Below, piece after piece: positions 7,002 to 26,964 of a stretch of 27,888 nt of DNA. The notes beneath the pieces were generated by a model that worked only from the letters and a program-made list of their open reading frames with translations, ran no database searches and had not been told where the DNA came from. The stretch is from a virus. The stretch covers positions 1 through 27,888 of IMG/VR virus record IMGVR_UViG_3300033153_007207, one strand, 5' to 3'. Position numbers and translations under genes: made by a program. Every line of letters begins with the position of its first letter. Position 1 is the stretch's first letter.

Positions 7002-8723
7002 TTAAGTATCTGAAGTTCTAATAGCCGTAATAGTAGTATTAGAGCCCGAGAATGAAGCTGACGATATAAATTGTTTAATAGGAGAAGCTCCACCGTCACG
7101 AACAATTACAACAAGATCTTGATCAGATGAATGTACCGCTGTATAAGACTCTGTTGTAGAGCCAGCTAATACGTCTATATAAGCAACATATACATTGTTA
7201 GATATTGCCGCTTCATCTCCGGAGAATGTAGTACTATCTATAGCAAATACAGATCCCGCATAAGAATTATAAGTTATTTCTCTATAACGACCGTCATCCA
7301 TTTGAATTCGTATATCACCAGAACTTGGTGTACCTACTGGAATTGTTCCAACATCTACAGCTGTTTCTGTTCCCGAAGTTAAAGCAACATCTAGAGACAT
7401 TTGATCTACTTCAATAGCAGGGTTACCCTCACTATCCGTAGATACTCCATCCCATGGTGCTACTAGAACTCTATCTTCTGTACTTATTAAGCCAGCTACA
7501 GAGAATGTAACATTATTAGGAGGAGTAACTTGAGCGTTATCTAAATCGAACACTTTATCCGAAGCAGTTAAATCATTAGTTTCTAATCCTATACCGTATG
7601 CGCCAATTAAGGCTGAACCTGTTGACGCTCCAATAAATGGTGTTGAAATAAGTGATGAACGATCAGTAACTGTTATGTTAACTTCATTATCTGCACTTGA
7701 ACTTCCACCAGTGATAGTATCATTGTTAGAAGGTGCTACACCCGTTAATAGCTGTATCCACATTTTACTAGAAGAGGTAGCGGCAATATTATCAATAGCT
7801 AGCATCTGACCAGTACCACCAGTCCAAGATACTGCTTCAAAAGGATCCCAAGTACCAGACCCACCATCTAATTCTATCTCATGAGTAATACCTCTGAATA
7901 ATTCACCATTTATACCGTATATTGTAGATACTGAACCATCACGTGTTAACCACTTCATGCGTTCGTAAAAATCATTTATTGTACGAGTACCTATATCAGC
8001 GTTCCACTCAGAGTAGTAATACTCATCTACTGCATTACCATTAACATCAATAGCAGCATACCCTTCAGTTGCATTATCAATTGTACTCCAACCAGATACA
8101 GTACCTTCTGCAGTTCCGTTATTAAGGTCAGAAGCATCTGAAAGAGCTAATACGTTGTTACCGCGAGAAGACCCGTTAATTGAGAATTCTGAGTATGTAT
8201 TACCAAATGTACGGCAAGTACCTAGTACTCTACGTCCGTCCGTATCAGCACCACCAGTTCTAACTTTAAGCATAAATCTATGAGATATACCCGCAGCCGC
8301 GTCTTCGTTTAATCCATTAGAGGATCCATCATCATTCCACCAGTCATCTGCGAGTACTGCACCATCTTGGATAATCTGAATATTTATTCCTGAATTACCG
8401 AAGTTTACAATACCATCGTAGATTTCATCACCAGAGCTCTGAATGATGGAACCATCATATAAGTGTTCTGCTGCAGTGTCGTCTATGTTGTATGTACCTA
8501 GTAGTGTTATAATGTTGTCAGTTGAACGACTAGAAGGTAGTTCATCTGTAATATCTAATTCATCGTCACCAGTAGAACTAGCGTCATCCGCTAAGTCTTG
8601 TAACCATCTGTGAAACTCAATTACTGTAGCATATGTAGGGGACCCACCTGTGTGGTCATTACCTATATAACGAATATCTCCAGTTGATCTAGTAACTGTC
8701 CAATGTGTAGCATCAATAGCCAT
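7002..8723 (-). CDS. Conserved phage virion protein, beta-rich, unknown function
   Basis: This 573-residue protein starts MAIDATHWTVTRSTGDIRYI and contains TYATVIEFHRWLQDLADDA and EYYYSEWNADIGTRTINDFY. I recall a family with this N-terminus in phage structural operons, without known function. It is Asp/Ser/Gly/Thr-rich and beta-rich, with no membrane segment or enzyme motif. Its C-terminal 120 residues (from about 450) are repetitive in composition. Position between the 138-residue gene and the LamG pair suggests a virion appendage or tail-associated protein. Confidence 0.8.
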   Translation of the reverse strand: MAIDATHWTVTRSTGDIRYIGNDHTGGSPTYATVIEFHRWLQDLADDASSTGDDELDITDELPSSRSTDNIITLLGTYNIDDTAAEHLYDGSIIQSSGDEIYDGIVNFGNSGINIQIIQDGAVLADDWWNDDGSSNGLNEDAAAGISHRFMLKVRTGGADTDGRRVLGTCRTFGNTYSEFSINGSSRGNNVLALSDASDLNNGTAEGTVSGWSTIDNATEGYAAIDVNGNAVDEYYYSEWNADIGTRTINDFYERMKWLTRDGSVSTIYGINGELFRGITHEIELDGGSGTWDPFEAVSWTGGTGQMLAIDNIAATSSSKMWIQLLTGVAPSNNDTITGGSSSADNEVNITVTDRSSLISTPFIGASTGSALIGAYGIGLETNDLTASDKVFDLDNAQVTPPNNVTFSVAGLISTEDRVLVAPWDGVSTDSEGNPAIEVDQMSLDVALTSGTETAVDVGTIPVGTPSSGDIRIQMDDGRYREITYNSYAGSVFAIDSTTFSGDEAAISNNVYVAYIDVLAGSTTESYTAVHSSDQDLVVIVRDGGASPIKQFISSASFSGSNTTITAIRTSDT

Positions 8724-9519: not shown

Positions 9520-9826
9520 TGCGTTCCTCTAACTTAATTATGCGTTCTTTCCAAACACCTGATTCTGAATCATGCTTAGTTATATGGTCTGAAGAATGTT
9601 TAATATCTTCTCTCATAGCTTCTAAAATAATTGAAGTAGTTGCATTATTAATAGCTGTTACCTCTAATGATTTACTTATAGCTTTTATACTAACGGTATT
9701 TGCTGCTACCTTCTCAGCTAGCATAACATATCCTATATTTAATTGAATTCCCCAGACTATTCCACCTATTACTACTAAGACGCCAGCCGGTGATAACCAG
9801 GCTTGAGCCCACTGTGGTATTGTCAT
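9497..9826 (-). CDS. Membrane protein with N-terminal TM and C-terminal helix (holin- or spanin-like candidate)
   Basis: This 109-residue protein has one clear membrane segment near the N-terminus (about residues 13-35, AGVLVVIGGIVWGIQLNIGY) followed by a helical, charged C-terminal region ending in EERNGGFKER. The topology, one N-terminal anchor with a long soluble coiled tail, fits some phage holins or lysis regulators and also small membrane-anchored packaging-region proteins. No lysin gene is visible in the window, so a lysis role is speculative. It lies between large terminase (8 bases) and the HNH gene (overlap). Confidence 0.75.
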   Translation of the reverse strand: MTIPQWAQAWLSPAGVLVVIGGIVWGIQLNIGYVMLAEKVAANTVSIKAISKSLEVTAINNATTSIILEAMREDIKHSSDHITKHDSESGVWKERIIKLEERNGGFKER

Positions 9827-18547: not shown

Positions 18548-18576
18548 ATTATACCATAAAAGTATAAAAATGTCAA
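18548..18576 (-). promoter_or_regulatory. Late-operon promoter, sigma70 consensus
   Basis: On the minus strand TTGACA (18571-18576) is followed by a 17-base spacer and TATAAT (18548-18553), matching E. coli sigma70 consensus in both boxes and spacing. It lies about 115 bases upstream of the small-terminase ATG and should drive the entire leftward operon. Confidence 0.88.
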
Positions 18577-19078: not shown

Positions 19079-19155
19079 ATATAATAAAGTTGGCACGCTG
19101 GTTGCATATATATAAGCGTAACACAAATTTTAATCCACCACCAAAGGCTGACATT

Positions 19156-20201: not shown

Positions 20202-20290
20202 ATATTAGAATATTATAATATACTAATATGCTGATGCGCCGATTTTACCATAGGGAATCGGGTAATGTCAAGGGCTATTGGTGGATATTG
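20202..20290. promoter_or_regulatory. Intergenic module A (degenerate rightward half)
   Basis: It contains a near-perfect 28-base AT palindrome (20202-20229) and a minus-strand promoter: TTGACA (20266-20271), 18-base spacer, TAAAAT (20242-20247). The box found rightward in modules B-F is recognisable but degraded, with no good -10 after it. The leftward promoter is the part that stayed intact. Its predicted start (about 20235) lies just before the palindrome. Confidence 0.65.
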
Positions 20291-20357
20291 ACAGAAATAA
20301 TTGGCATGGATTTTGACGCGTGTTAATAATCGTGCCAACTATATTTGCGTTTAGGGG

Positions 20358-20387
20358 TTGACTCAGCCCGATATTTTATGAGATAAT
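20358..20387 (+). promoter_or_regulatory. Rightward sigma70 promoter
   Basis: TTGACT (20358-20363), 18-base spacer, GATAAT (20382-20387). It is followed by the repetitive 20424 ORF and then the G-rich tract. Confidence 0.6.
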
Positions 20388-20423
20388 AGCCGTCTGGGAA
20401 ATTAATCGGAGAAATCAAATATT

Positions 20424-20549
20424 ATGAAATGCTTATATTCTAATATTCTAATATGCTTATATTCTAATATTCTAATATGCTTATATAGCTTCTGCACCGG
20501 AGAGGTTGGGAGGGGGAGGGGGAGGGGAGTGAGTAGGGTAGTAATATAA
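20424..20549 (+). CDS. Possible short repetitive ORF
   Basis: The frame (41 residues, MKCLYSNILICLYSNILICL at the start) follows GGAG by a longish gap. A 24-base tandem repeat gives CLYSNILI twice, and the G-rich tract gives GRGRGRG. It may be real, but the composition suggests a leader whose repeats or G-run matter rather than the peptide. Confidence 0.25.
   Translation: MKCLYSNILICLYSNILICLYSFCTGEVGRGRGRGVSRVVI
20431..20485 (+). repeat. 24-base tandem repeat (two copies and part of a third)
   Basis: Units at 20431-20454 and 20455-20478 are identical and start GCTTATATTCTAATATTC. A partial third copy follows. Each contains CTAATAT half-sites like those in the AT palindromes of modules A, E and G. 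Confidence 0.8.
20508..20527 (+). other. G-quadruplex-forming tract
   Basis: Four runs of 3, 5, 5 and 4 G are separated by single A bases. This is a classic short-loop G4 motif on the coding strand between two rightward promoters. Confidence 0.6.
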
Positions 20550-20559
20550 TAATGTAGGG

Positions 20560-20588
20560 TTGTAATTCTATTTTAGTTATGTTATAAT
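20560..20588 (+). promoter_or_regulatory. Rightward sigma70 promoter for 20615 operon
   Basis: TTGTAA (20560-20565), 17-base spacer, TATAAT (20583-20588), 26 bases ahead of the next ATG, which follows AGAGGG. Confidence 0.7.
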
Positions 20589-20614
20589 GTAGTTATTGAA
20601 ACAGAGGGTTTAAT

Positions 20615-20746
20615 ATGAATACGAAAAAGATAGATAGATTTATAGATAACTATCCTTGGTGTTGGGGATTGATTATGATATGTATATGTGCTGTGACTTC
20701 AATACCTGCCGCTATGCTAGGCATATGGCTAGGGCGTATGTTATGA
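20615..20746 (+). CDS. Small membrane protein
   Basis: This 43-residue protein (MNTKKIDRFIDNYPWCWGLI start) has a basic N-terminus and one membrane segment (about residues 15-40, LIMICICAVTSIPAAMLGIW). AGAGGG precedes the start and a good promoter lies just upstream, so expression is likely. It overlaps the next gene by 4 bases (ATGA). It belongs to a series of tiny membrane proteins in this region; function is unknown. Confidence 0.7.
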   Translation: MNTKKIDRFIDNYPWCWGLIMICICAVTSIPAAMLGIWLGRML

Positions 20747-21057
20747 AAACTAGTATATACATGGCAGACCCTCATAGTCCCGGCAGACATAATTCCTTTT
20801 TAGGTGGGGATTATTTTGATCAGGGTGATGGGTGGAATTTTACTGGTAAAATAAGATATACACCCACTATTATAAATGGTGAATATAATCTAGAATTTGA
20901 GATAGAAATAAATATTCCATCATGGGGTAACCGCAAAAAATGGTGGAAATTTTGGCAAGATCCGGAGATTATTATAAATCATAAAATAATATGGATAGAT
21001 GAAAAAGGCGTGCATATATCATTCAAGGATGAGCAGGTCGTGCTAGAATGTAATTAG
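20743..21057 (+). CDS. Hypothetical early protein
   Basis: The start is the ATG at 20743 overlapping the previous stop (ATGA), giving 104 residues (MKTSIYMADPHSPGRHNSFL start). It has unusually many Trp and aromatic residues (SWGNRKKWWKFWQDPEIIIN). It looks mainly beta-stranded in the middle (TPTIINGEYNLEFEIEINIP). No family is recognised. Module B follows its stop. Confidence 0.72.
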   Translation: MKTSIYMADPHSPGRHNSFLGGDYFDQGDGWNFTGKIRYTPTIINGEYNLEFEIEINIPSWGNRKKWWKFWQDPEIIINHKIIWIDEKGVHISFKDEQVVLECN

Positions 21058-21063
21058 AATAAG

Positions 21064-21190
21064 CCTAGATGAGATTCGTTCTCATTTAGGCGCCGATTTT
21101 AGCACAGCGAATCGGGTTTTGTCAATACCTCTTTGTGGGTATGGTGAATATAGCTGAGTCCTGTATAATGGCTTTATTGATTAGGGGGAT
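21064..21190. promoter_or_regulatory. Intergenic module B with opposed promoters
   Basis: Dyad 21064-21090 (core ATGAGA-TTCGT-TCTCAT). Leftward promoter TTGACA (21120-21125), 18 bases, TAAAAT (21096-21101). The rightward part has a conserved box ending GTATG at 21143, then 20 bases to TATAAT (21164-21169). Predicted rightward start is near 21176, and the mRNA then carries AGGGGG (21183-21188) before the ATG at 21193. Confidence 0.75.
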
Positions 21191-21192
21191 TT

Positions 21193-21381
21193 ATGAATAT
21201 TTATCAGGAAAAAGGTTTTGAAAGTCGTAAAGACTATATAGAACAGGTAGCTTTGACATACGGGCTTAATTATGAGCAGGTAGCATATACAGCCGAATTT
21301 TTAGGTATGTCAGAAGATTTTGATGGGTTACTGTCACACTGTGCAGATATGGCAGGTACAGTTTTTATGAGCGTAGAATAG
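21193..21381 (+). CDS. Hypothetical early protein
   Basis: This 62-residue helical protein (MNIYQEKGFESRKDYIEQVA start) has an AGGGGG ribosome binding site and is driven by module B. ALTYGLNYEQVAYTAEFLGM could be a small helix-turn-helix-like bundle, but I cannot place it in a family. Two more genes follow closely. Confidence 0.75.
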   Translation: MNIYQEKGFESRKDYIEQVALTYGLNYEQVAYTAEFLGMSEDFDGLLSHCADMAGTVFMSVE

Positions 21382-21392
21382 GAGGAGATAGA

Positions 21393-21467
21393 ATGATTAA
21401 ACGAATTTTTGTATTACATCTATATGCTTGGACAGCATTGATTATAATTATTGGGGTATTCGGTTAA
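21393..21467 (+). CDS. Tiny membrane peptide
   Basis: MIKRIFVLHLYAWTALIIII then GVFG: 24 residues with a basic start and one hydrophobic segment. An excellent ribosome binding site (AGGAGG, 7 bases before ATG) makes translation likely. Its stop overlaps the next start (TAATG). Confidence 0.65.
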   Translation: MIKRIFVLHLYAWTALIIIIGVFG

Positions 21468-21631
21468 TGATATCACTGGGGGGTATGAGTTTAAGAGCCT
21501 TGAATGTAGCGTTTAGATATGCTAGAATGTATAAAGTTGTTCCGAATGAAGCGAGCAAATGGACGGAAGAAGATAACCGCAAAATTAAGGATTTATGCAC
21601 TGAAATAGACCGGAGACACAATGAGAATTAA
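21467..21631 (+). CDS. Hypothetical early protein
   Basis: I use ATG 21467 (54 residues) because it overlaps the previous stop. ATG 21485 (MSLRALNVAFRYARMYKVVP) preceded by GGGG is an alternative. The protein is helical and basic near the front, then charged (WTEEDNRKIKDLCTEIDRRH). No family is recognised. It overlaps the next gene by 11 bases. Confidence 0.65.
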   Translation: MISLGGMSLRALNVAFRYARMYKVVPNEASKWTEEDNRKIKDLCTEIDRRHNEN

Positions 21632-21845
21632 TATAGCTAAACTTGAAGCAAACGGCTTTATTGTAGACCAGAATAGAAAGGATGGAATAATCCATATTCA
21701 CCCAGCGGGGGGTAACACTGAGTTATTTAATGCAGTCTGCAAAACTCTTTCTACTTTTGACGTTTATGATGGTGCTCGAAAAGCTGAAGAACTGGTAATG
21801 CGAATTAATGACGAAAAAATAATGCAACTTAGTTCTGACATATAA
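21621..21845 (+). CDS. Hypothetical early protein
   Basis: This 74-residue protein begins MRINIAKLEANGFIVDQNRK with CGGAG 5 bases before the ATG. DGIIHIHPAGGNTELFNAVC suggests a small alpha/beta fold. No family is recognised. Module C follows. Confidence 0.7.
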   Translation: MRINIAKLEANGFIVDQNRKDGIIHIHPAGGNTELFNAVCKTLSTFDVYDGARKAEELVMRINDEKIMQLSSDI

Positions 21846-21885
21846 ACCCCTGTAGGTTTGGTCAGCCTTATACCAAAATGACAAG

Positions 21886-21991
21886 CCAAATGAGATTCGT
21901 TCTCATTTGGCGCGCCGATTTTAGCACAGCGAATCGGGTTTTGTCAATACCTCTTTGTGGGTATGGTGAATATAGCTGAGTCCTGTATAAT
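21886..21991. promoter_or_regulatory. Intergenic module C with opposed promoters; leaderless rightward start
   Basis: Perfect dyad 21886-21910 (10-base arms, CCAAATGAGA and TCTCATTTGG). Leftward TTGACA (21942-21947), 18 bases, TAAAAT (21918-21923), giving a predicted start at about 21911, next to the dyad. Rightward box ending GTATG at 21965, 20 bases, TATAAT (21986-21991). The rightward start, 7 bases downstream, is the A of the ATG at 21998. Confidence 0.8.
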
Positions 21992-21997
21992 GGCTTT

Positions 21998-22324
21998 ATG
22001 TTAAATACAACTACAGAAATATTCAATGAAATTAACTCCGACATTTTTGCGGATTCACTTGACATTCCAGAATTTCTATTTCTTGATGATTCTGAGAATT
22101 ATGGATGGTACATACAATATCATACTAAGGATTTTATTAATATAAACCCTAAATATTGCTTGACATATATTCATATATTTGGTACTATAGCACATGAGAT
22201 GATTCATTTATGGCAATATACCATAGAAAATAAACATTGGAAACAGGTAGGGCATAGGTTGGATTTTAGGAAAAAAGCACTGGAAATCGAAAACTTTTAT
22301 AAACTAGAATGGGATACGGTATGA
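21998..22324 (+). CDS. SprT-like zinc metallopeptidase
   Basis: This 108-residue protein has the zinc-protease motif HEMIH (His66, Glu67, His70) in AHEMIHLWQ, and a later His86 in VGHRLDFRKKA that fits the third ligand of SprT/Spartan-like folds. Length suits the minimal domain. Possible roles are cutting host proteins or DNA-protein crosslinks. The start codon sits 7 bases after the module C -10, so the mRNA is predicted to be leaderless, with no upstream ribosome binding site. Its stop overlaps the next gene's start (ATGA). Confidence 0.78.
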   Translation: MLNTTTEIFNEINSDIFADSLDIPEFLFLDDSENYGWYIQYHTKDFININPKYCLTYIHIFGTIAHEMIHLWQYTIENKHWKQVGHRLDFRKKALEIENFYKLEWDTV

Positions 22325-22491
22325 AAATAATAGCAGGTTTACTTTTAATGGTAATAGTTTATTTTATTAGCTTTTGGGCAATGGTTAAAGGTTGGGGAAT
22401 TGAACCTGTAGACCTTAGTTTTATAATATGGTCATACGTTGCTATGTTCATTGTTAATCTTATAAGCCTCGGAGTTATGGCAGAGACTTAA
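22321..22491 (+). CDS. Small two-helix membrane protein
   Basis: The 56 residues (MKIIAGLLLMVIVYFISFWA start) have two hydrophobic segments (about 2-22 and 35-54). The start overlaps the metallopeptidase stop. It could assist or inhibit the protease or act independently; no family is recognised. Confidence 0.68.
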   Translation: MKIIAGLLLMVIVYFISFWAMVKGWGIEPVDLSFIIWSYVAMFIVNLISLGVMAET

Positions 22492-22554
22492 CACAGGGCG
22501 AATTTCTAGGGCGCACGAGCCGAGGAAATGGATTTACTAGAATTAGTCTAAAGA

Positions 22555-22584
22555 CCTCAACCATAAAGGTTGGGGCATTTTTTT
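22555..22584 (+). terminator. Intrinsic terminator
   Basis: Stem CCTCAACC with GGTTGGGG (one wobble), loop ATAAA, then CATTTTTTT. It terminates the metallopeptidase and membrane-protein transcript. Confidence 0.8.
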
Positions 22585-22598
22585 GTCCACAATATTCT

Positions 22599-22720
22599 AA
22601 ACGAGAATCATTCTCGTTTGAGGCGCCGATTTTAACACATAAAATCGGGTTTTGTCAATACCTCTTTGTGGGTATGGTGTGGCGCGGGGTTTCCTGTATA
22701 ATGGCTTTATTGATTAGAGG
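22599..22720. promoter_or_regulatory. Intergenic module D with opposed promoters
   Basis: Dyad 22599-22619 (AAACGAGAA, TCA, TTCTCGTTT). Leftward TTGACA (22653-22658), 18 bases, TAAAAT (22629-22634). Rightward box ending GTATG (22676), 20 bases, TATAAT (22697-22702), then ATTAGAGGGA. No ATG follows at the usual distance. The next gene instead has its own promoter, so the original gene may have been lost. Confidence 0.72.
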
Positions 22721-22759
22721 GAAGCGGTTAAAAACCTTTAAAAATAATTCAAAAAATGC

Positions 22760-22788
22760 TTGACAAACGAATCGAATCAATGTAAAAT
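22760..22788 (+). promoter_or_regulatory. Strong sigma70 promoter of 22863 gene
   Basis: TTGACA (22760-22765), 17-base spacer, TAAAAT (22783-22788). The same TTGAC(A/T)-17-TAAAAT form occurs at 26165 and 27091. Confidence 0.82.
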
Positions 22789-22808
22789 GTGTTTCAAGGA
22801 ATAGGGAA

Positions 22809-22850
22809 ATGGATTTCACTTTAATCACCCAATCATGGGTAACAATTTGA
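22809..22850 (+). CDS. Possible 13-residue leader peptide
   Basis: MDFTLITQSWVTI is preceded by AGGG. Its stop overlaps the GAGG ribosome binding site used by the next gene. It could couple or attenuate translation of that gene. Too short to be sure. Confidence 0.35.
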   Translation: MDFTLITQSWVTI

Positions 22851-22862
22851 GGTATTAAAATC

Positions 22863-23300
22863 ATGGCTAAAGTAGCTAATTATTCAGCGGAATTAACCGC
22901 TACAATCGTTTCGGCTTATACTGATGCGGGCAACGGTGTGACAGATGCGGATTATGCAACTCGAAAAGAGATTGTAAAAAATCTGGCTAAAACTCACCAG
23001 AAATCTGAGCAGTCTATAATCTCTAAACTGGTGCGCGAAAAACGCGAAGATGGCACTAATGTGTATATTTCCGCGAAACCTGCCAATTCTGCTGTAACTG
23101 GTAAACCTGCGATGAAAAAGGATGCGATGGTTGAAAAACTGCGTAATGTTTCAGGTCTGGAATTATCAGCCAGTATGGAAAAAACCACGGTTTCAGATTT
23201 GAGTATGCTTATCGAAGTTTTTGAGCAGTCTGACGCAGAAGCGGAAGTGGTAGACGCAGATGAGAATGATTCTCAGGACGGTGAAACCGACACAGAGTAG
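22863..23300 (+). CDS. Putative DNA-binding regulator (paralogue of 26245 gene)
   Basis: This 145-residue protein has an N-terminal helical domain with an HTH-like stretch (LAKTHQKSEQSIISKLVRE), a linker, then a C-terminal KKDAMVEKLRNVSGLELSAS and MEKTTVSDLSMLI region that looks like a helix-extension-helix (SAP/HeH-like) element. I recall similar small proteins in T4- and T7-like phages. It ends in an acidic tail (EVVDADENDSQDGETDTE). It aligns with the 26245 gene end to end. Preceded by a strong promoter, a leader peptide and followed by a terminator. The domain names are inference. Confidence 0.72.
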   Translation: MAKVANYSAELTATIVSAYTDAGNGVTDADYATRKEIVKNLAKTHQKSEQSIISKLVREKREDGTNVYISAKPANSAVTGKPAMKKDAMVEKLRNVSGLELSASMEKTTVSDLSMLIEVFEQSDAEAEVVDADENDSQDGETDTE

Positions 23301-23312
23301 GGCAATCCTGCC

Positions 23313-23341
23313 AGCCTATCCCGAAAGGGGTAGGCTTTTTT
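23313..23341 (+). terminator. Intrinsic terminator
   Basis: AGCCTATCCC, loop GAAA, GGGGTAGGCT then TTTTTT. Clear, strong rho-independent structure just after the 23300 stop. Confidence 0.88.
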
Positions 23342-23351
23342 ATTCCCGCGA

Positions 23352-23487
23352 ATATTAGTATATTATAATATTCTAATATACTCGCGCCAATTTTATCACA
23401 TAAAATTGGGTTTTGTCAATATCTCTTTGTGGGTATGGTGTGGGCTGTGCTTTCCTGTATAATGGCTTTATTGATTAGAGGAGAGAG
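23352..23487. promoter_or_regulatory. Intergenic module E with opposed promoters and AT palindrome
   Basis: A near-perfect 28-base AT palindrome (23352-23379), the reverse complement of the one in module A, is flanked by CGCG. Leftward TTGACA (23414-23419), 18 bases, TAAAAT (23390-23395). Rightward box ending GTATG (23437), 20 bases, TATAAT (23458-23463), then a GAGGAG ribosome binding site. Confidence 0.78.
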
Positions 23488-23488
23488 C

Positions 23489-23707
23489 ATGAAGTTTTAC
23501 GAATTTTTTGGGGCGTTGTTGGCGGGTATCGGTTTTGGTATGCTGTCATTCGGCTTTTATTTTACAGGATTTATTCTGGGAAGTCTATCTTGCATATTTT
23601 TAATTATATATTTTGTTGCAACTAAACAACATTCTCTATTGACATTACAGGCATATTTTAGTATAATGAATGTCATAGGAATTATAAATAACTGGGGTTC
23701 ATTATGA
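23489..23707 (+). CDS. Small multi-pass membrane protein
   Basis: I start at ATG 23489, after GAGGAG, giving 72 residues (MKFYEFFGALLAGIGFGMLS start); the longer frame begins inside the promoter. There are about three hydrophobic helices, with the last part TKQHSLLTLQAYFSIMNVIG resembling small transporter-like folds (PnuC/YgjV type) only faintly. It overlaps the next gene (ATGA). Confidence 0.72.
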   Translation: MKFYEFFGALLAGIGFGMLSFGFYFTGFILGSLSCIFLIIYFVATKQHSLLTLQAYFSIMNVIGIINNWGSL

Positions 23708-24192
23708 TTAAAAGGATACACATGTACGATTTAGACGGTTTAGCTATTGATAGCTTACATCGGTATAAAACCAAAAACGGGAAAATTGACTTATCCTACT
23801 GGCGGGAAAATGACCACGCTGAAAAGATTATGCAGGATTCCTTAATGCCTATGGCTAAACATATTCAAGATTCTATTATGAATCCTAGCATTTATGTGAT
23901 TATCGCTACTGCTAGAGCGTGTATTGCCGGTGATGCAAATTACAATTTTATAGACTTACATTTTAAAGGTTTTAACAAGTTTATCCATAGAAAAGGTACT
24001 AATGACAATCGGGGCGGGGCGGAATTGAAAATCAAAGGCATGAAACAATTTTTAGGTCTTAAACAATTTCAAGGCGCAAAATTTCATGTTTATGAAGATA
24101 ATAGTGATTATCTGGCAGACGTTTGTTATGCAATGCGGGATATGGGATTTCCTACAGTCGGACATTTTAATCCATCTTATCAGGGACATTAA
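23704..24192 (+). CDS. HAD-superfamily phosphatase-like protein
   Basis: This 162-residue protein has HAD motif I with Asp9 and Asp11 in MYDLDGLAIDS, a motif II Thr69 in VIIATARAC, Lys109 or Lys111 in AELKIKGMK (motif III), and acidic motif IV in HVYEDNSDYLADV (Glu131, Asp132, Asp135). This suggests phosphate-group hydrolysis, for example on nucleotide or polynucleotide 3' ends. It overlaps the membrane-protein stop and is followed closely by a small ORF. Substrate is unknown. Confidence 0.8.
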   Translation: MIKRIHMYDLDGLAIDSLHRYKTKNGKIDLSYWRENDHAEKIMQDSLMPMAKHIQDSIMNPSIYVIIATARACIAGDANYNFIDLHFKGFNKFIHRKGTNDNRGGAELKIKGMKQFLGLKQFQGAKFHVYEDNSDYLADVCYAMRDMGFPTVGHFNPSYQGH

Positions 24193-24194
24193 AA

Positions 24195-24344
24195 ATGAAA
24201 AAGTTATATGAAATGTCAATAAAAGAAAGGCATAAAAAATTGGCGGCTGTAAGGCATGAAATTTTAAAAGACATGTTTTTTCTAACAAATGGCGGTGTAA
24301 AAGCAGTAGCTGTCGGAGTTATTAAAAAACAGCCTTTCTTTTAA
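24195..24344 (+). CDS. Small basic hypothetical protein
   Basis: The 49 residues (MKKLYEMSIKERHKKLAAVR start) are rich in lysine and predicted helical. AGGG lies about 9 bases before the ATG, and it begins 2 bases after the HAD stop. No family is recognised. Possibly nucleic-acid binding, given the charge. Confidence 0.6.
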   Translation: MKKLYEMSIKERHKKLAAVRHEILKDMFFLTNGGVKAVAVGVIKKQPFF

Positions 24345-24350
24345 CAAAGT

Positions 24351-24458
24351 CCAAATGAGAATCATTCTCATTTGGCGGCGCCAATTTTATCACATAAAAT
24401 TGGGTTTTGTCAATATCTCTTTGTGGGTATGTACGGGTGGGGCTGAATTTGATACTAT
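24351..24458. promoter_or_regulatory. Intergenic module F with opposed promoters; Fur-like dyad; leaderless rightward start
   Basis: A perfect dyad 24351-24375 contains AATGAGAATCATTCTCATT, close to a Fur box. Leftward TTGACA (24408-24413), 18 bases, TAAAAT (24384-24389). Rightward box ending GTATG (24431), 21 bases, TACTAT (24453-24458). The start would fall on the A of the ATG at 24465. Confidence 0.75.
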
Positions 24459-24464
24459 AAGCGC

Positions 24465-24566
24465 ATGAAAATACTATTTACTGATAATGAATATATAGAT
24501 ATAGCTGTGATAATTATTTTGGTTATATCCCTAATTGGGTATGTACTATTTGCTTCAATATGTTAA
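24465..24566 (+). CDS. Tiny membrane protein, probably leaderless
   Basis: MKILFTDNEYIDIAVIIILV and the rest (33 residues) form a single hydrophobic helix after an acidic N-terminus. The ATG is 7 bases after the -10 with no ribosome binding site, matching the module C geometry. The exonuclease gene follows in the same transcript. Confidence 0.6.
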   Translation: MKILFTDNEYIDIAVIIILVISLIGYVLFASIC

Positions 24567-24602
24567 TATATACATTCTGAAATTAACGGGAGGAAACCCC
24601 AA

Positions 24603-25343
24603 ATGGCAAAACCTGATTATTTTTTAATCGTAGATACTGAAACCACTATGACGGATTTAGTGGCGGATTTTGGCGCGGTAGTTGTAAACAAAAAAGGTGA
24701 AATTATGGCACAATGCGGAATTTTGACTTTTGGCATTTATAACGAATCCAAAAAACACCCATTGTTCCATAACGAAAAATCTGCGGAATTGTGGAAAATT
24801 TCCAGACTGGCTGAAAGATACGCAAATTATAATGATATGCTTAATAATGGTCATAGACAATTATCAAGTGTAGCAGGTATAAATAATTGGCTCGAAAAAG
24901 TTGAGCGTACTTATAACCCATATTTGACAGCTTACAACCTGACTTTTGATTCTGGCAAGTGTTACAATACCGGAATAGACCTAGCAAGGTTTAAGAAAAA
25001 GCAATTTTGTTTATGGTACGCAAGTGTTGAAAAATGGGCATTTACTAAAAAGTACCGGCAGTTCATTTTAGACAATAACTTTTTTAAGAAAAAGACAGAA
25101 CCGACTGCAAGGTATCCTTTGGGAAATTTGAACTATCCAACAAATGCCGAAGTTATGACTCGATTTATTGCTGATGATGCAATGTTCCCTGACGAGCCAC
25201 ATACCGCGTTGGAAGATGTTATGGATTACGAATTGCCTTTACTGCTAAAACTGGTAAATTCTACCAAAAAGCAAAAATGGCAAAATCCAAAACCTTTCAA
25301 CTGGCAAGCGGTACAAGTAAAGGATTGGTATATCCCCAAATAG
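24603..25343 (+). CDS. DEDDh 3'-5' exonuclease (DnaQ-like)
   Basis: The 246 residues show the complete acidic set: Asp11 and Glu13 in IVDTETTM (ExoI), Asp116 in TAYNLTFDSG (ExoII), and His200 with Asp205 in EPHTALEDVM (ExoIII). The H/D spacing marks the DEDDh subfamily, as in DNA polymerase III epsilon and related phage nucleases. It trims DNA or RNA 3' ends in replication, repair or host-DNA breakdown. GGGAGG precedes the start. A Trp/Lys-rich C-terminal extension (KKQKWQNPKPFNWQAVQVKD) is not part of the core. No polymerase gene is seen here. Confidence 0.92.
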   Translation: MAKPDYFLIVDTETTMTDLVADFGAVVVNKKGEIMAQCGILTFGIYNESKKHPLFHNEKSAELWKISRLAERYANYNDMLNNGHRQLSSVAGINNWLEKVERTYNPYLTAYNLTFDSGKCYNTGIDLARFKKKQFCLWYASVEKWAFTKKYRQFILDNNFFKKKTEPTARYPLGNLNYPTNAEVMTRFIADDAMFPDEPHTALEDVMDYELPLLLKLVNSTKKQKWQNPKPFNWQAVQVKDWYIPK

Positions 25344-25366
25344 GTATAGACCAAAGCAAAAGGATT

Positions 25367-25375
25367 TGCTATAAT
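25367..25375 (+). promoter_or_regulatory. Extended -10 promoter for 25438 gene
   Basis: TGC directly precedes TATAAT (25370-25375), an extended -10 of sigma70 type. The -35 is poor. The ATG of the next gene is about 60 bases downstream. Confidence 0.55.
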
Positions 25376-25437
25376 TACTACACTGGAATTATCCAGAAAC
25401 AACTTTAATCATGTTTAACAATTTAGAGGAAAATATT

Positions 25438-25653
25438 ATGCCTACAAAAACTGACTTTTCAACTTTCGCATCTGCTAAGCAATCTGTAACCGGTCGCTTA
25501 AAACGTCTAAAAAACTCTCGCGTTCGTTGGCACAATCGACCATCGCCAATAAAAGAAATTGGGTGTTTTGATGAAGAAATTGATGCGATGGAAGAAACTT
25601 TACTTTCCATGAAATCACGACTTGACCGCGCAACGATCAAAATCCCTGATTAA
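25438..25653 (+). CDS. Small hypothetical protein
   Basis: I use ATG 25438, 7 bases after AGAGGA, giving 71 residues (MPTKTDFSTFASAKQSVTGR start); an upstream ATG 25411 has no such site. The front half is basic (RLKRLKNSRVRWHNRPSPIK), the back half helical and charged (FDEEIDAMEETLLSMKSRLD). A nucleic-acid role is plausible but unproven. Its own promoter and terminator make it a single-gene unit. Confidence 0.7.
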   Translation: MPTKTDFSTFASAKQSVTGRLKRLKNSRVRWHNRPSPIKEIGCFDEEIDAMEETLLSMKSRLDRATIKIPD

Positions 25654-25663
25654 TTTCAGACTT

Positions 25664-25692
25664 AAAAATCCTGCTTTTTAGCAGGATTTTTT
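25664..25692 (+). terminator. Strong terminator, probably bidirectional
   Basis: AAAAATCCTGC, loop TTTTTA, GCAGGATTTTTT. On the minus strand it also ends in GCAGGATTTTT, so a leftward transcript from module G should stop here. Confidence 0.9.
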
Positions 25693-25702
25693 ACGCTTCA
25701 CT

Positions 25703-25816
25703 ATATTAGAATATTATAATATTCTAATATACCCGCGCCGATTTTAGCACATAAAATCGGGTAAAGTCAATATCTCTTTGGGGGTATAGACGCACTCACA
25801 TTTTGTGTGCTATAAT
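25703..25816. promoter_or_regulatory. Intergenic module G with opposed promoters and perfect AT palindrome
   Basis: A perfect 28-base palindrome at 25703-25730. Leftward TTGACT (25765-25770), 18 bases, TAAAAT (25741-25746), predicted start about 25734. Rightward box ending GTATA (25788), 22 bases, then an extended -10, TGC TATAAT (25811-25816). No ORF follows, so the rightward product may be RNA. Confidence 0.72.
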
Positions 25817-25822
25817 AGAAGT

Positions 25823-26160
25823 AGCAGGCGGCGTTTGCGCCGAAAATCACGAGCACGCTACTATAAGTATAGCACAGCGGAGCCCCCATGGATATACCCA
25901 CAAATGGATATATGCACCACCTTAAAAATAGGCGCGGAGCGCCGACGTCAGTAGTAGAATAACGATGTTTTAGAGAAATATATACGTTTGTAATGTGGGC
26001 ACCGACGCAGTAGTAGTATAATAACTATTTAAGTAATACGTGGACCAAATATCGAATTTGGACGACTTCGAATAGTTGGGCTATACCCATAGCTTGAGGT
26101 TGAGGCAGAAATATTTAGGCGTGGCGCCGACGACCGTAGTAGAGTAACGGTCAAAAATTA
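25823..26160 (+). ncRNA. Candidate structured non-coding RNA
   Basis: Downstream of the extended -10 TATAAT at 25811 there is no credible ORF for about 340 bases. Instead there are clear hairpins: AGTAGC/GCTACT (25820-25825 with 25857-25862) enclosing CGGCG-TTTG-CGCCG (25829-25842); CCAAAT/ATTTGG (26045-26061); GCTAT/ATAGC (26080-26093). Three copies of a conserved element (about 25931, 25995 and 26118) combine a short GC hairpin, CGACG, and AGTAGTAG-like bases with TAACG or TAATAAC. Exact ends and strand are inferred, as I see no T-run terminator. Confidence 0.5.
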
Positions 26161-26164
26161 GTAG

Positions 26165-26193
26165 TTGACTAATTTGGTTAATTGGGGTAAAAT
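26165..26193 (+). promoter_or_regulatory. Strong sigma70 promoter of 26245 gene
   Basis: TTGACT (26165-26170), 17-base spacer, TAAAAT (26188-26193), followed by a leader with AGGG/CCCT hairpin and AAAGG ribosome binding site. Confidence 0.8.
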
Positions 26194-26244
26194 AGTTTTA
26201 GAAATTGAGGGAAAAGCCCTTGATAATTTAAAAGGAAAAATACC

Positions 26245-26610
26245 ATGGCTTACATTTACACTGACAATGACCTTGACACTATCGTTGGAACTTACTCTGC
26301 TTCTGTTGAGCAAGGCGATGACTATGCTGCACGCGACAAGGTGATGCAAACTCTCGCTGCACAATTCAAATCTACTGTACCATCTATCCGTGGTAAGCTT
26401 AACGCTGAGGGTGTGTACGTTAAGAAAGAGGTAGCTTCTACTGCTACAGGTAAAACTGGAGCTAGCAAGGAAGAAATGACTAAGGCTGTTGAGGCTATGA
26501 CTGGTCTGAAGCTGCCATCTATGTCTAACATGACTAAGAAAGACCTTGACAAGTTTCTTGCACGCTTCATCGAGATGTCTGACATCCGTAATGCTGAAGA
26601 AGGCAAATAA
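26245..26610 (+). CDS. Putative DNA-binding regulator (paralogue of 22863 gene)
   Basis: This 121-residue protein begins MAYIYTDNDLDTIVGTYSAS and shows the same plan as the 22863 protein: an HTH-like LAAQFKSTVPSIRGKLNAEG followed by a KEEMTKAVEAMTGLKLPSMS and NMTKKDLDKFLARF region that looks like a helix-extension-helix (SAP/HeH) element. It lacks the acidic tail. Codon choice differs from its neighbours (more GGT, CTG, GCT, CGT, GAC), typical of high expression or foreign origin. Preceded by a strong promoter and followed by a strong terminator. DNA or RNA binding is inferred. Confidence 0.72.
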   Translation: MAYIYTDNDLDTIVGTYSASVEQGDDYAARDKVMQTLAAQFKSTVPSIRGKLNAEGVYVKKEVASTATGKTGASKEEMTKAVEAMTGLKLPSMSNMTKKDLDKFLARFIEMSDIRNAEEGK

Positions 26611-26649
26611 TCGGGGAGGGTGGACGACAGCCCTCTGATTAGCCGACCT

Positions 26650-26680
26650 GCCCGTACATTTAGGTGTGCGGGCTTTTTTT
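26650..26680 (+). terminator. Strong intrinsic terminator
   Basis: A 9-base stem (GCCCGTACA with GTGTGCGGGC, one wobble) is followed by TTTTTTT. It closes the 26245 gene. Confidence 0.9.
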
Positions 26681-26727
26681 GTGGCTACTATTGCGCCGAA
26701 ATCGCAAACGATTCTCCCATTATATAT

Positions 26728-26756
26728 ATTTTACCATAGCCAAGCCCAAATGTCAA
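26728..26756 (-). promoter_or_regulatory. Intergenic module H (leftward promoter only)
   Basis: TTGACA (26751-26756) with 17-base spacer and TAAAAT (26728-26733), minus strand. No rightward box or -10 is intact. A small dyad (AATCG, CAAA, CGATT at 26700-26713) lies just downstream of its predicted start. Confidence 0.65.
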
Positions 26757-26767
26757 GTTTTAATAAA

Positions 26768-26839
26768 AATACAGCTCAGCGGAGCCTTAAATAGACTTAT
26801 ATAGGGTTATATGCACTAATACAGCTCAGCGGGGCCTTA
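26768..26839 (+). repeat. 22-base direct repeat pair, 50-base period
   Basis: Copies at 26768-26789 and 26818-26839 differ at one base (AATACAGCTCAGCGGAGCCT start). Each contains a GCTC-AGCG-GAGC mini-dyad. A related fragment (ACAGCGGAGCC) occurs at about 25873. Confidence 0.75.
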
Positions 26840-26964
26840 TACGGAGCAATTCGGTGCTATGCGGACTAATATCGACATATAGGCGATTGTAGCAAGATTT
26901 TTCGGGTAGGGGGTCCAATTTCTATGCGTTTAAGGGACTTATTTCTTTCTAGGTACAGCAAATG

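Follow-up and report, generated by a model that had tools for sequence, protein, structure and literature searches.

The 27,888-base virus record IMGVR_UViG_3300033153_007207 (positions 1 to 27,888, the whole of which is called the window below) carries eight leftward sigma70-type promoters in the spaces between its rightward early genes. Seven of them (A to G) are copies of one intergenic module, in which a hairpin at the 3' end of an early unit is joined to a predicted antisense promoter pointing back into that unit. The arrangement is best read as a device for head-on interference with the upstream unit, to which we assign a probability of about 0.5; the odds that this interference is the selected function are likewise even. 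The promoter elements, their strand, position and conservation, the hairpin and, in part of the copies, a palindrome are established at the level of sequence. The window has a leftward late block up to 18.5 kb, followed by small rightward genes.

An original prediction of minus-strand -10 hexamers at 20242, 21096, 21918, 22629, 23390, 24384, 25741 and 26728 was borne out at every coordinate. All eight sites are intergenic, lying between rightward genes and outside the rightward open reading frames (ORFs). As had been claimed, the -35 hexamer is TTGACA (A to F and H) or TTGACT (G), the -10 hexamer is TAAAAT throughout, and the spacer is 17-18 nt (18 nt in A to G, 17 nt in H). The sites, together with the promoter of the late operon, are as follows.

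20242..20271, minus strand: module A leftward promoter, -35 TTGACA at 20266-20271, -10 TAAAAT at 20242-20247, TGG, 18-nt spacer; predicted start about 20235
21096..21125, minus strand: module B leftward promoter, TTGACA, 18-nt spacer, TGC TAAAAT; predicted start about 21089
Leftward promoters of the next four modules, minus strand, each with its approximate predicted start: C 21918..21947 (21911), D 22629..22658 (22622), E 23390..23419 (23383), F 24384..24413 (24377)
25741..25770, minus strand: leftward promoter of module G, with TTGACT as its -35; start predicted at about 25734
26728..26756, minus strand: site H leftward promoter, 17-nt spacer, late-promoter-like, not an aligned module copy
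18548..18576, minus strand: late-operon promoter, TTGACA, 17-nt spacer, TATAAT, with TGG

All eight sites also possess an extended -10 element (TGnTAAAAT) in which n is free (C, G, G, A, T, T, G and C). G matches 10 of the 12 hexamer bases and the other seven sites 11, which fits a sigma70-type promoter with 16-18 nt spacing. At a threshold of at least 11/12, the early region contains eight leftward and no rightward extended -10 sites, compared with about 0.03 per strand in shuffled sequence; these eight are seven of the sites above (without G) and the late promoter. Rightward promoters scoring 11-12/12 are present at 22760, 23639 and 27091, without the TG. With 39% of the stretch noncoding, the chance of eight sites all falling outside ORFs is about 5e-4 if they are independent, which the seven repeat copies are not. 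At each of the eight sites, the leftward promoter faces the codirectional gene upstream of it. The sites are very probably real leftward promoters.

The description of the set as an eight-copy module, with H as a degraded copy, was not supported by alignment. Only the hexamers of site H align with those of the modules; its dyad is absent, GGCGC stands behind the hairpin instead of before it, and the site is closer to the late promoter. The late promoter had been assigned to the same family, and it does share the core, including TG, but GGCGC and the hairpin are both missing from it.

Read leftward, the module consists of an 18-bp element, P3 (ATACC...GGTAT), TTGACA, an 18-nt spacer, TGnTAAAAT, Y, GGCGC and a directly adjoining hairpin or palindrome, P1, whose foot coincides with the predicted RNA start. 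Another 32-131 nt along comes the stop codon of the rightward gene upstream. On the right side of modules B to G, a rightward -10 precedes the next gene; neither the position nor the sequence of these rightward promoters is constant, and A and H lack them. The elements were located as follows.

P1 as a hairpin: B 21063..21091 (AATGAGATTCGTTCTCATT type), C 21885..21911, D 22599..22619, F 24351..24375 (CCAAATGAGAATCATTCTCATTTGG)
P1 as an AT-rich palindrome: A 20202..20229, E 23352..23379, G 25703..25730
22626..22648: P2 of module D, a 23-bp dyad that covers the leftward -10 and reaches into the spacer, CCGATTTTAACACATAAAATCGG
23387-23409 (E), 24381-24403 (F), 25738-25760 (G): P2 in other modules, with the outer 6 bp only in A, B and C
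22658..22675: P3 18-mer of module D, ATACCTCTTTGTGGGTAT, adjoining the leftward -35
21125-21142 (B), 21947-21964 (C), 23419-23436 (E), 24413-24430 (F), 25770-25787 (G): other copies of P3
21164..21169 (B), 21986-21991 (C), 22697-22702 (D), 23458-23463 (E), 25811-25816 (G), plus strand: rightward -10 TATAAT
24453-24458, plus strand: rightward -10 of module F, TACTAT

In the related locus L160 (around 7320-7380), the P3 18-mer occurs in reverse-complement form relative to the window, which suggests a putative protein site functional in either orientation. The rightward ORFs at 21998 and 24468 start at, or within about 1 base of, the predicted rightward promoter starts of modules C and F, and their mRNAs are therefore possibly leaderless.

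The promoter is the part of the module that is conserved in relatives. A pattern containing only the dyad retrieved 41 stretches from IMG/VR, nearly all of which have an unconstrained TTGAC at equal distance, with five of the six hexamer bases invariant or nearly so. When the -10 and -35 were freed and the dyad arm was kept, the same 41 loci were recovered with one unrelated-looking match (L151, which has neither hexamer), while more than 119 loci were obtained once the mirror arm was freed, a few random matches being expected among them; the mirror arm is thus dispensable and the promoter is retained. Counts of hexamers and spacing in the motif-selected set, which are partly shaped by the search patterns, gave TAAAAT in 127, TATAAT in 18 and TACAAT in 1 for the -10 with the other elements fixed, A in 108, G in 15, C in 3 and T in 1 for the last base of the -35, and 18-nt spacing in 151 of 157. 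Across 388 modules, the n of TGn is G in 177, A in 133, C in 44 and T in 34. The variation is sigma70-like, with A or T as the third base of the -10, the sixth base of the -35 weakest, n free and a gap of 18. This gap is retained in a variant with both dyad arms shortened; patterns one base too short between the elements, which act as spacing controls, produced 0 and 1 matches, the single one (L052) being a real variant that keeps the 18-nt gap. In the closest relative, G017, the spacers, dyad and hairpins have changed, and TTGACA-18-TGnTAwAAT followed by CGGCGC or TGGCGC is retained. Modules that lack the palindrome still keep the -10, TGn, GGCGC and the distance between -10 and -35. The relatives therefore display the opposite of drifting hexamers in an otherwise stable module: the hexamers, TG, 18-nt gap and GGCGC are kept and the rest, including the dyad, drifts. 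The predicted leftward sigma70-type promoters, directed against the genes, are upheld by these comparisons.

The main evidence for conservation of the module comes from loci found through a neighbouring protein, which provided a motif-independent anchor.

24603..25343, plus strand: conserved gene, N-terminal motif DxETT, product probably a DnaQ-like exonuclease

Relatives of this gene are present in 17 of 18 records, the window included. A protein-alignment search with its product fetched 80 loci, the 80 nearest to L062, with a non-redundant subset of 53 (310 kb); the query alignment was built from loci first found via the motif, so that the set represents one clade and is not a random sample. 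These 53 loci contain 190 leftward and 39 rightward extended -10 sites scoring at least 11/12 (shuffles, 0.3 per strand). GGCG directly follows the -10 in 176 of the 190 leftward sites versus 2 of the 39 rightward ones, and this strand count with GGCG is what chiefly carries the case. Most of the leftward sites have a hairpin abutting GGCG, and their spacer is 18 nt in 158, 17 nt in 30 and 16 nt in 2. One more relative, L243, was found in an independent genome collection, with a leftward TTGACT-18-TAAAAT, TGG, then TGGCGC and an inverted repeat. The antisense promoter is retained among phages whose exonuclease and terminase are approximately 40-60% identical to those of the window.

Other motifs were noted in the window and related loci. 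A perfect match to a sigma54-type -24/-12 promoter, TTGGCACGCTGGTTGCA, is located at 19090-19106 of the window on the plus strand. The sequence TGGCACGN4TTGC occurs 134 times in 75 related loci, in L160 directly beside modules. Two parS-like sequences, neither of which is present in the window, occur near modules of related loci (L171, L070, L082, L105 and others), namely TGTTTCACGTGAAACA (17 in 10 loci) and TGTTTCACATGAAACA (12 in 12 loci).

The 39 exact sites in 16 long records all share a single strand within each record, opposite to terL (48-63% identity to that of the window), and are clustered within a few kilobases. The terL genes of G010, G012 and G015 each contain one in-frame TAG, which may be recoded or may interrupt the gene. 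Gene flanks, with strands scored on genes with homologs, are (+,+) for 127, (+,-) for 12, (-,+) for 9 and (-,-) for 7 of the 155 scorable modules; the left neighbour, scorable at 178 sites, is rightward in 155.

The large terminase of the window shows 45% identity to those of T5-type Vibrio phages over almost its entire length, and the closest relatives of the portal and small terminase are likewise T5-type phages. No close DNA relatives of the window were found among named phages, and viral contigs searched with the exact P3 pattern and with the window terminase gave no matches. Nor did named phages, plasmids or bacterial genomes give a convincing match to the module. The carriers are a large group of uncultured T5-related bacterial viruses. 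T5 has two extended -10 sites of module quality in 100 kb and no GGCGC module, and a Vibrio T5-type phage has no such -10 site in 37 kb; the module is therefore a feature of the window's clade. The T5-type A1 pre-early gene was found in none of the 18 records, leaving the idea that the module zone is a pre-early zone unsupported.

An abutting P1 hairpin is present in 61% of modules versus 2.4% of shuffles at an equal cut-off, and begins 0-4 nt from GGCGC in most modules. Its sequence is highly variable, differing even among copies within one phage. P1 was ruled out as an intrinsic terminator, as there is no immediate U-run and GCGCC comes next on the sense side; on the leftward side, a T-rich tail is found in 16% and an A-rich tail in 20%. 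G-U pairs at stem mismatches favour the sense over the antisense RNA by 32 to 12, predicted terminators used as a control being biased to their own strand as expected (13 to 3); this lean is suggestive only. P2 is present in 57% of the 388 modules, mostly with 8-12-nt arms, and plainly absent in most others; the G-U test gave no information on P2, one arm of which is fixed by the promoter. P1 often has the form CCAAATGAGAATNATTCTCATTTGG (modules C, D and F and also 23258-23272 of the window; L013, L015, L074, L092 and others), which fits a 7-1-7 Fur box (TGAGAATNATTCTCA). The T5 injection stop signal also contains several copies of AAATGAGAATCATT.

Two window proteins, encoded at 22863-23300 and 26245-26610, have matches to DNA-binding or similar families, and each gene has a rightward promoter close to consensus as well as a strong terminator; they are candidates for module regulators. 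The noncoding regions 25850-26160 and 26768-26867 contain two to three CGACGNCAGTAGTAGAATAACG-like units and a tandem 50-nt repeat.

In the proposed mechanism, each module would form a transcription-unit boundary, made up of the P1 hairpin just past the upstream stop codon and the backward promoter. From this near-consensus extended -10 sigma70 promoter, transcription would start at the foot of the hairpin and read back into the gene; the promoter of the next rightward unit would lie beyond it. Host RNA polymerase leaving the backward promoter would collide head-on with polymerase transcribing the early unit and would also yield antisense RNA. Collision and antisense RNA would together damp the upstream unit and set its 3' end, with the hairpin fixing the site of collision. 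A repressor could bind the palindrome over the -10 and spacer, found in a bit over half of the modules, and keep the backward promoter off until needed. We infer promoter firing, interference, timing and protein binding to the palindrome, a late timing of leftward transcription being only an idea.

A gene given a synthetic terminator and antisense promoter at its 3' end is repressed to a degree that scales with the strength of that promoter (PMC4731013). Hairpins can stabilise head-on collisions of polymerases and bidirectional termination and fix where they happen (PMC13082048), and polymerase held at a terminator can restart backwards (PMC6978322). Since the module layout matches the synthetic part and collision and restart have these precedents, interference with the upstream early unit is the best-supported reading. 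The discriminator is the main difference between the promoter classes of T5 (PMC7472727); the GGCGC of the modules differs from the discriminators of the rightward promoters. The broader proposal, that a T5-related aquatic clade shuts its early units by programmed head-on transcription from dedicated, operator-controlled backward promoters with hairpins, is tentative, with the odds somewhat against it.

Several observations weigh against interference. Fully consensus promoters can be escape-limited (PMC10911233), so that the backward output may be small. Where the left neighbour could be scored, it runs leftward in about 13% of the modules, some of which may therefore be ordinary divergent promoters. 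An intrinsic terminator lies left of the module in 22 of 51 gaps versus 39 of 110 module-free gaps (p 0.39), a frequency no different, by which the replacement of intrinsic terminators by modules was rejected. The G-U strand test falls to 21:8 (p 0.02) without repeated contexts, and to 15:7 (p 0.13) when the largest hairpin family is also removed.

The main rival is a pure roadblock or insulator, in which polymerase tightly bound at the backward promoter, rather than far-reaching transcription from it, would block read-through from the upstream unit into the next. The near-complete consensus, the TG and the fixed 18-nt gap predict tight binding, and the hairpin at the predicted start may slow promoter clearance. 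However, a GC-rich discriminator is expected to lower open-complex stability. Escape can be the limiting step at promoters of strong consensus (PMC10911233), and it is described as rate-limiting for the T5 N25 promoter (PMC12464699). The equal frequency of intrinsic terminators to the left of modules gives no sign of modules terminating, and a pure roadblock is considered unlikely.

A stoperator-like array is less probable still. In such an array, a phage repressor would read the TGTCAA/dyad unit in one orientation and halt rightward elongation, and the resemblance to a promoter would come from the operator overlapping a -35, as it does in L5; TGTCAA is presumably common to the module and the stoperator site of mycobacteriophage L5. 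The many intergenic copies and their striking orientation relative to transcription are as in L5 (PMC9283540), and the P2 palindrome is frequent. The elements conserved in palindrome-free modules nevertheless include the -10, TGn, GGCGC and gap, the base choices are sigma70-like (TATAAT or TAAAAT, n free), and no repressor gene was identified.

It is also improbable, slightly more so, that the modules are sources of a short leftward RNA starting with the hairpin, trans-acting or a decoy, with incidental antisense overlap. The GGCGC discriminator resembles the discriminators of stable-RNA promoters, and the predicted start is at the hairpin base. However, the hairpins differ among copies of one phage, a strong U-run is missing, the G-U test leans to the sense strand, and Rfam gave no match to the window. 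No tRNA was found in it either.

Ordinary divergent promoter regions spread by gene shuffling as a PeSL-like cassette, in which the rightward promoter and hairpin are useful and the leftward promoter is a passenger, would explain why every module is at a unit boundary and why B to G have a rightward -10, but this is very improbable given that the leftward promoter is the most conserved part and that the rightward ones vary. Least probable of all is a single-strand interruption site with the promoter secondary: the module phages are T5-related, GGCGC before the hairpin fits the R^GCGC read at 3 of 4 annotated T5 interruptions, and the one at 9748 abuts a hairpin, but nicking does not require conservation of the -35, TGn and -10, and the bases following GCGC are unlike those of T5 (GCGCAGGG).

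Among known systems, the lambda OOP antisense RNA comes from a leftward promoter just past the 3' end of a rightward early gene, in one copy per genome, whereas the modules occur as several copies clustered in one small zone. In the T4-type PeSL (promoter plus stem-loop), the promoter drives the next gene. The modules resemble the PeSL (cited in PMC4503421) in being a repeated hairpin and promoter at early-gene boundaries; unlike it, their conserved promoter points backwards, away from the downstream gene. L5 stoperators (PMC9283540) are also many intergenic sites in one orientation relative to transcription, as are the 39 of 39 module sites on one strand per record, but they are 13-bp asymmetric sites of a monomeric repressor and not full 30-bp promoters with -10, TGn and GGCGC. 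T5 has related structural genes and uses host sigma70 throughout (PMC7472727), but extended -10 sites of module quality are almost absent from T5, as is the GGCGC module altogether. Collision termination with nascent-RNA hairpins (PMC13082048) similarly involves head-on polymerases and a hairpin between promoters; known cases lie between convergent genes, whereas the opposing promoter of the modules serves no leftward gene in most copies. Bacterial antisense promoters are described as poorly conserved (PMC6978322), for which reason their function is disputed; here, by contrast, the same antisense promoter is conserved with its spacing and discriminator at the 3' ends of codirectional genes. 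The switching of gene classes in T5-type phages is described as unknown (PMC7472727), and, if the promoter fires, the modules with their many sequence variants would offer a clear natural test of programmed head-on transcription as a regulatory tool. The part of Brophy and Voigt 2016 (PMC4731013) likewise places a terminator-like hairpin and then a reverse promoter at a gene 3' end; it is engineered and constitutive, whereas the modules are natural, recur, share one discriminator and in many cases have a palindrome over the -10, and would, if the proposal is true, be the natural, clade-wide counterpart of that synthetic switch.

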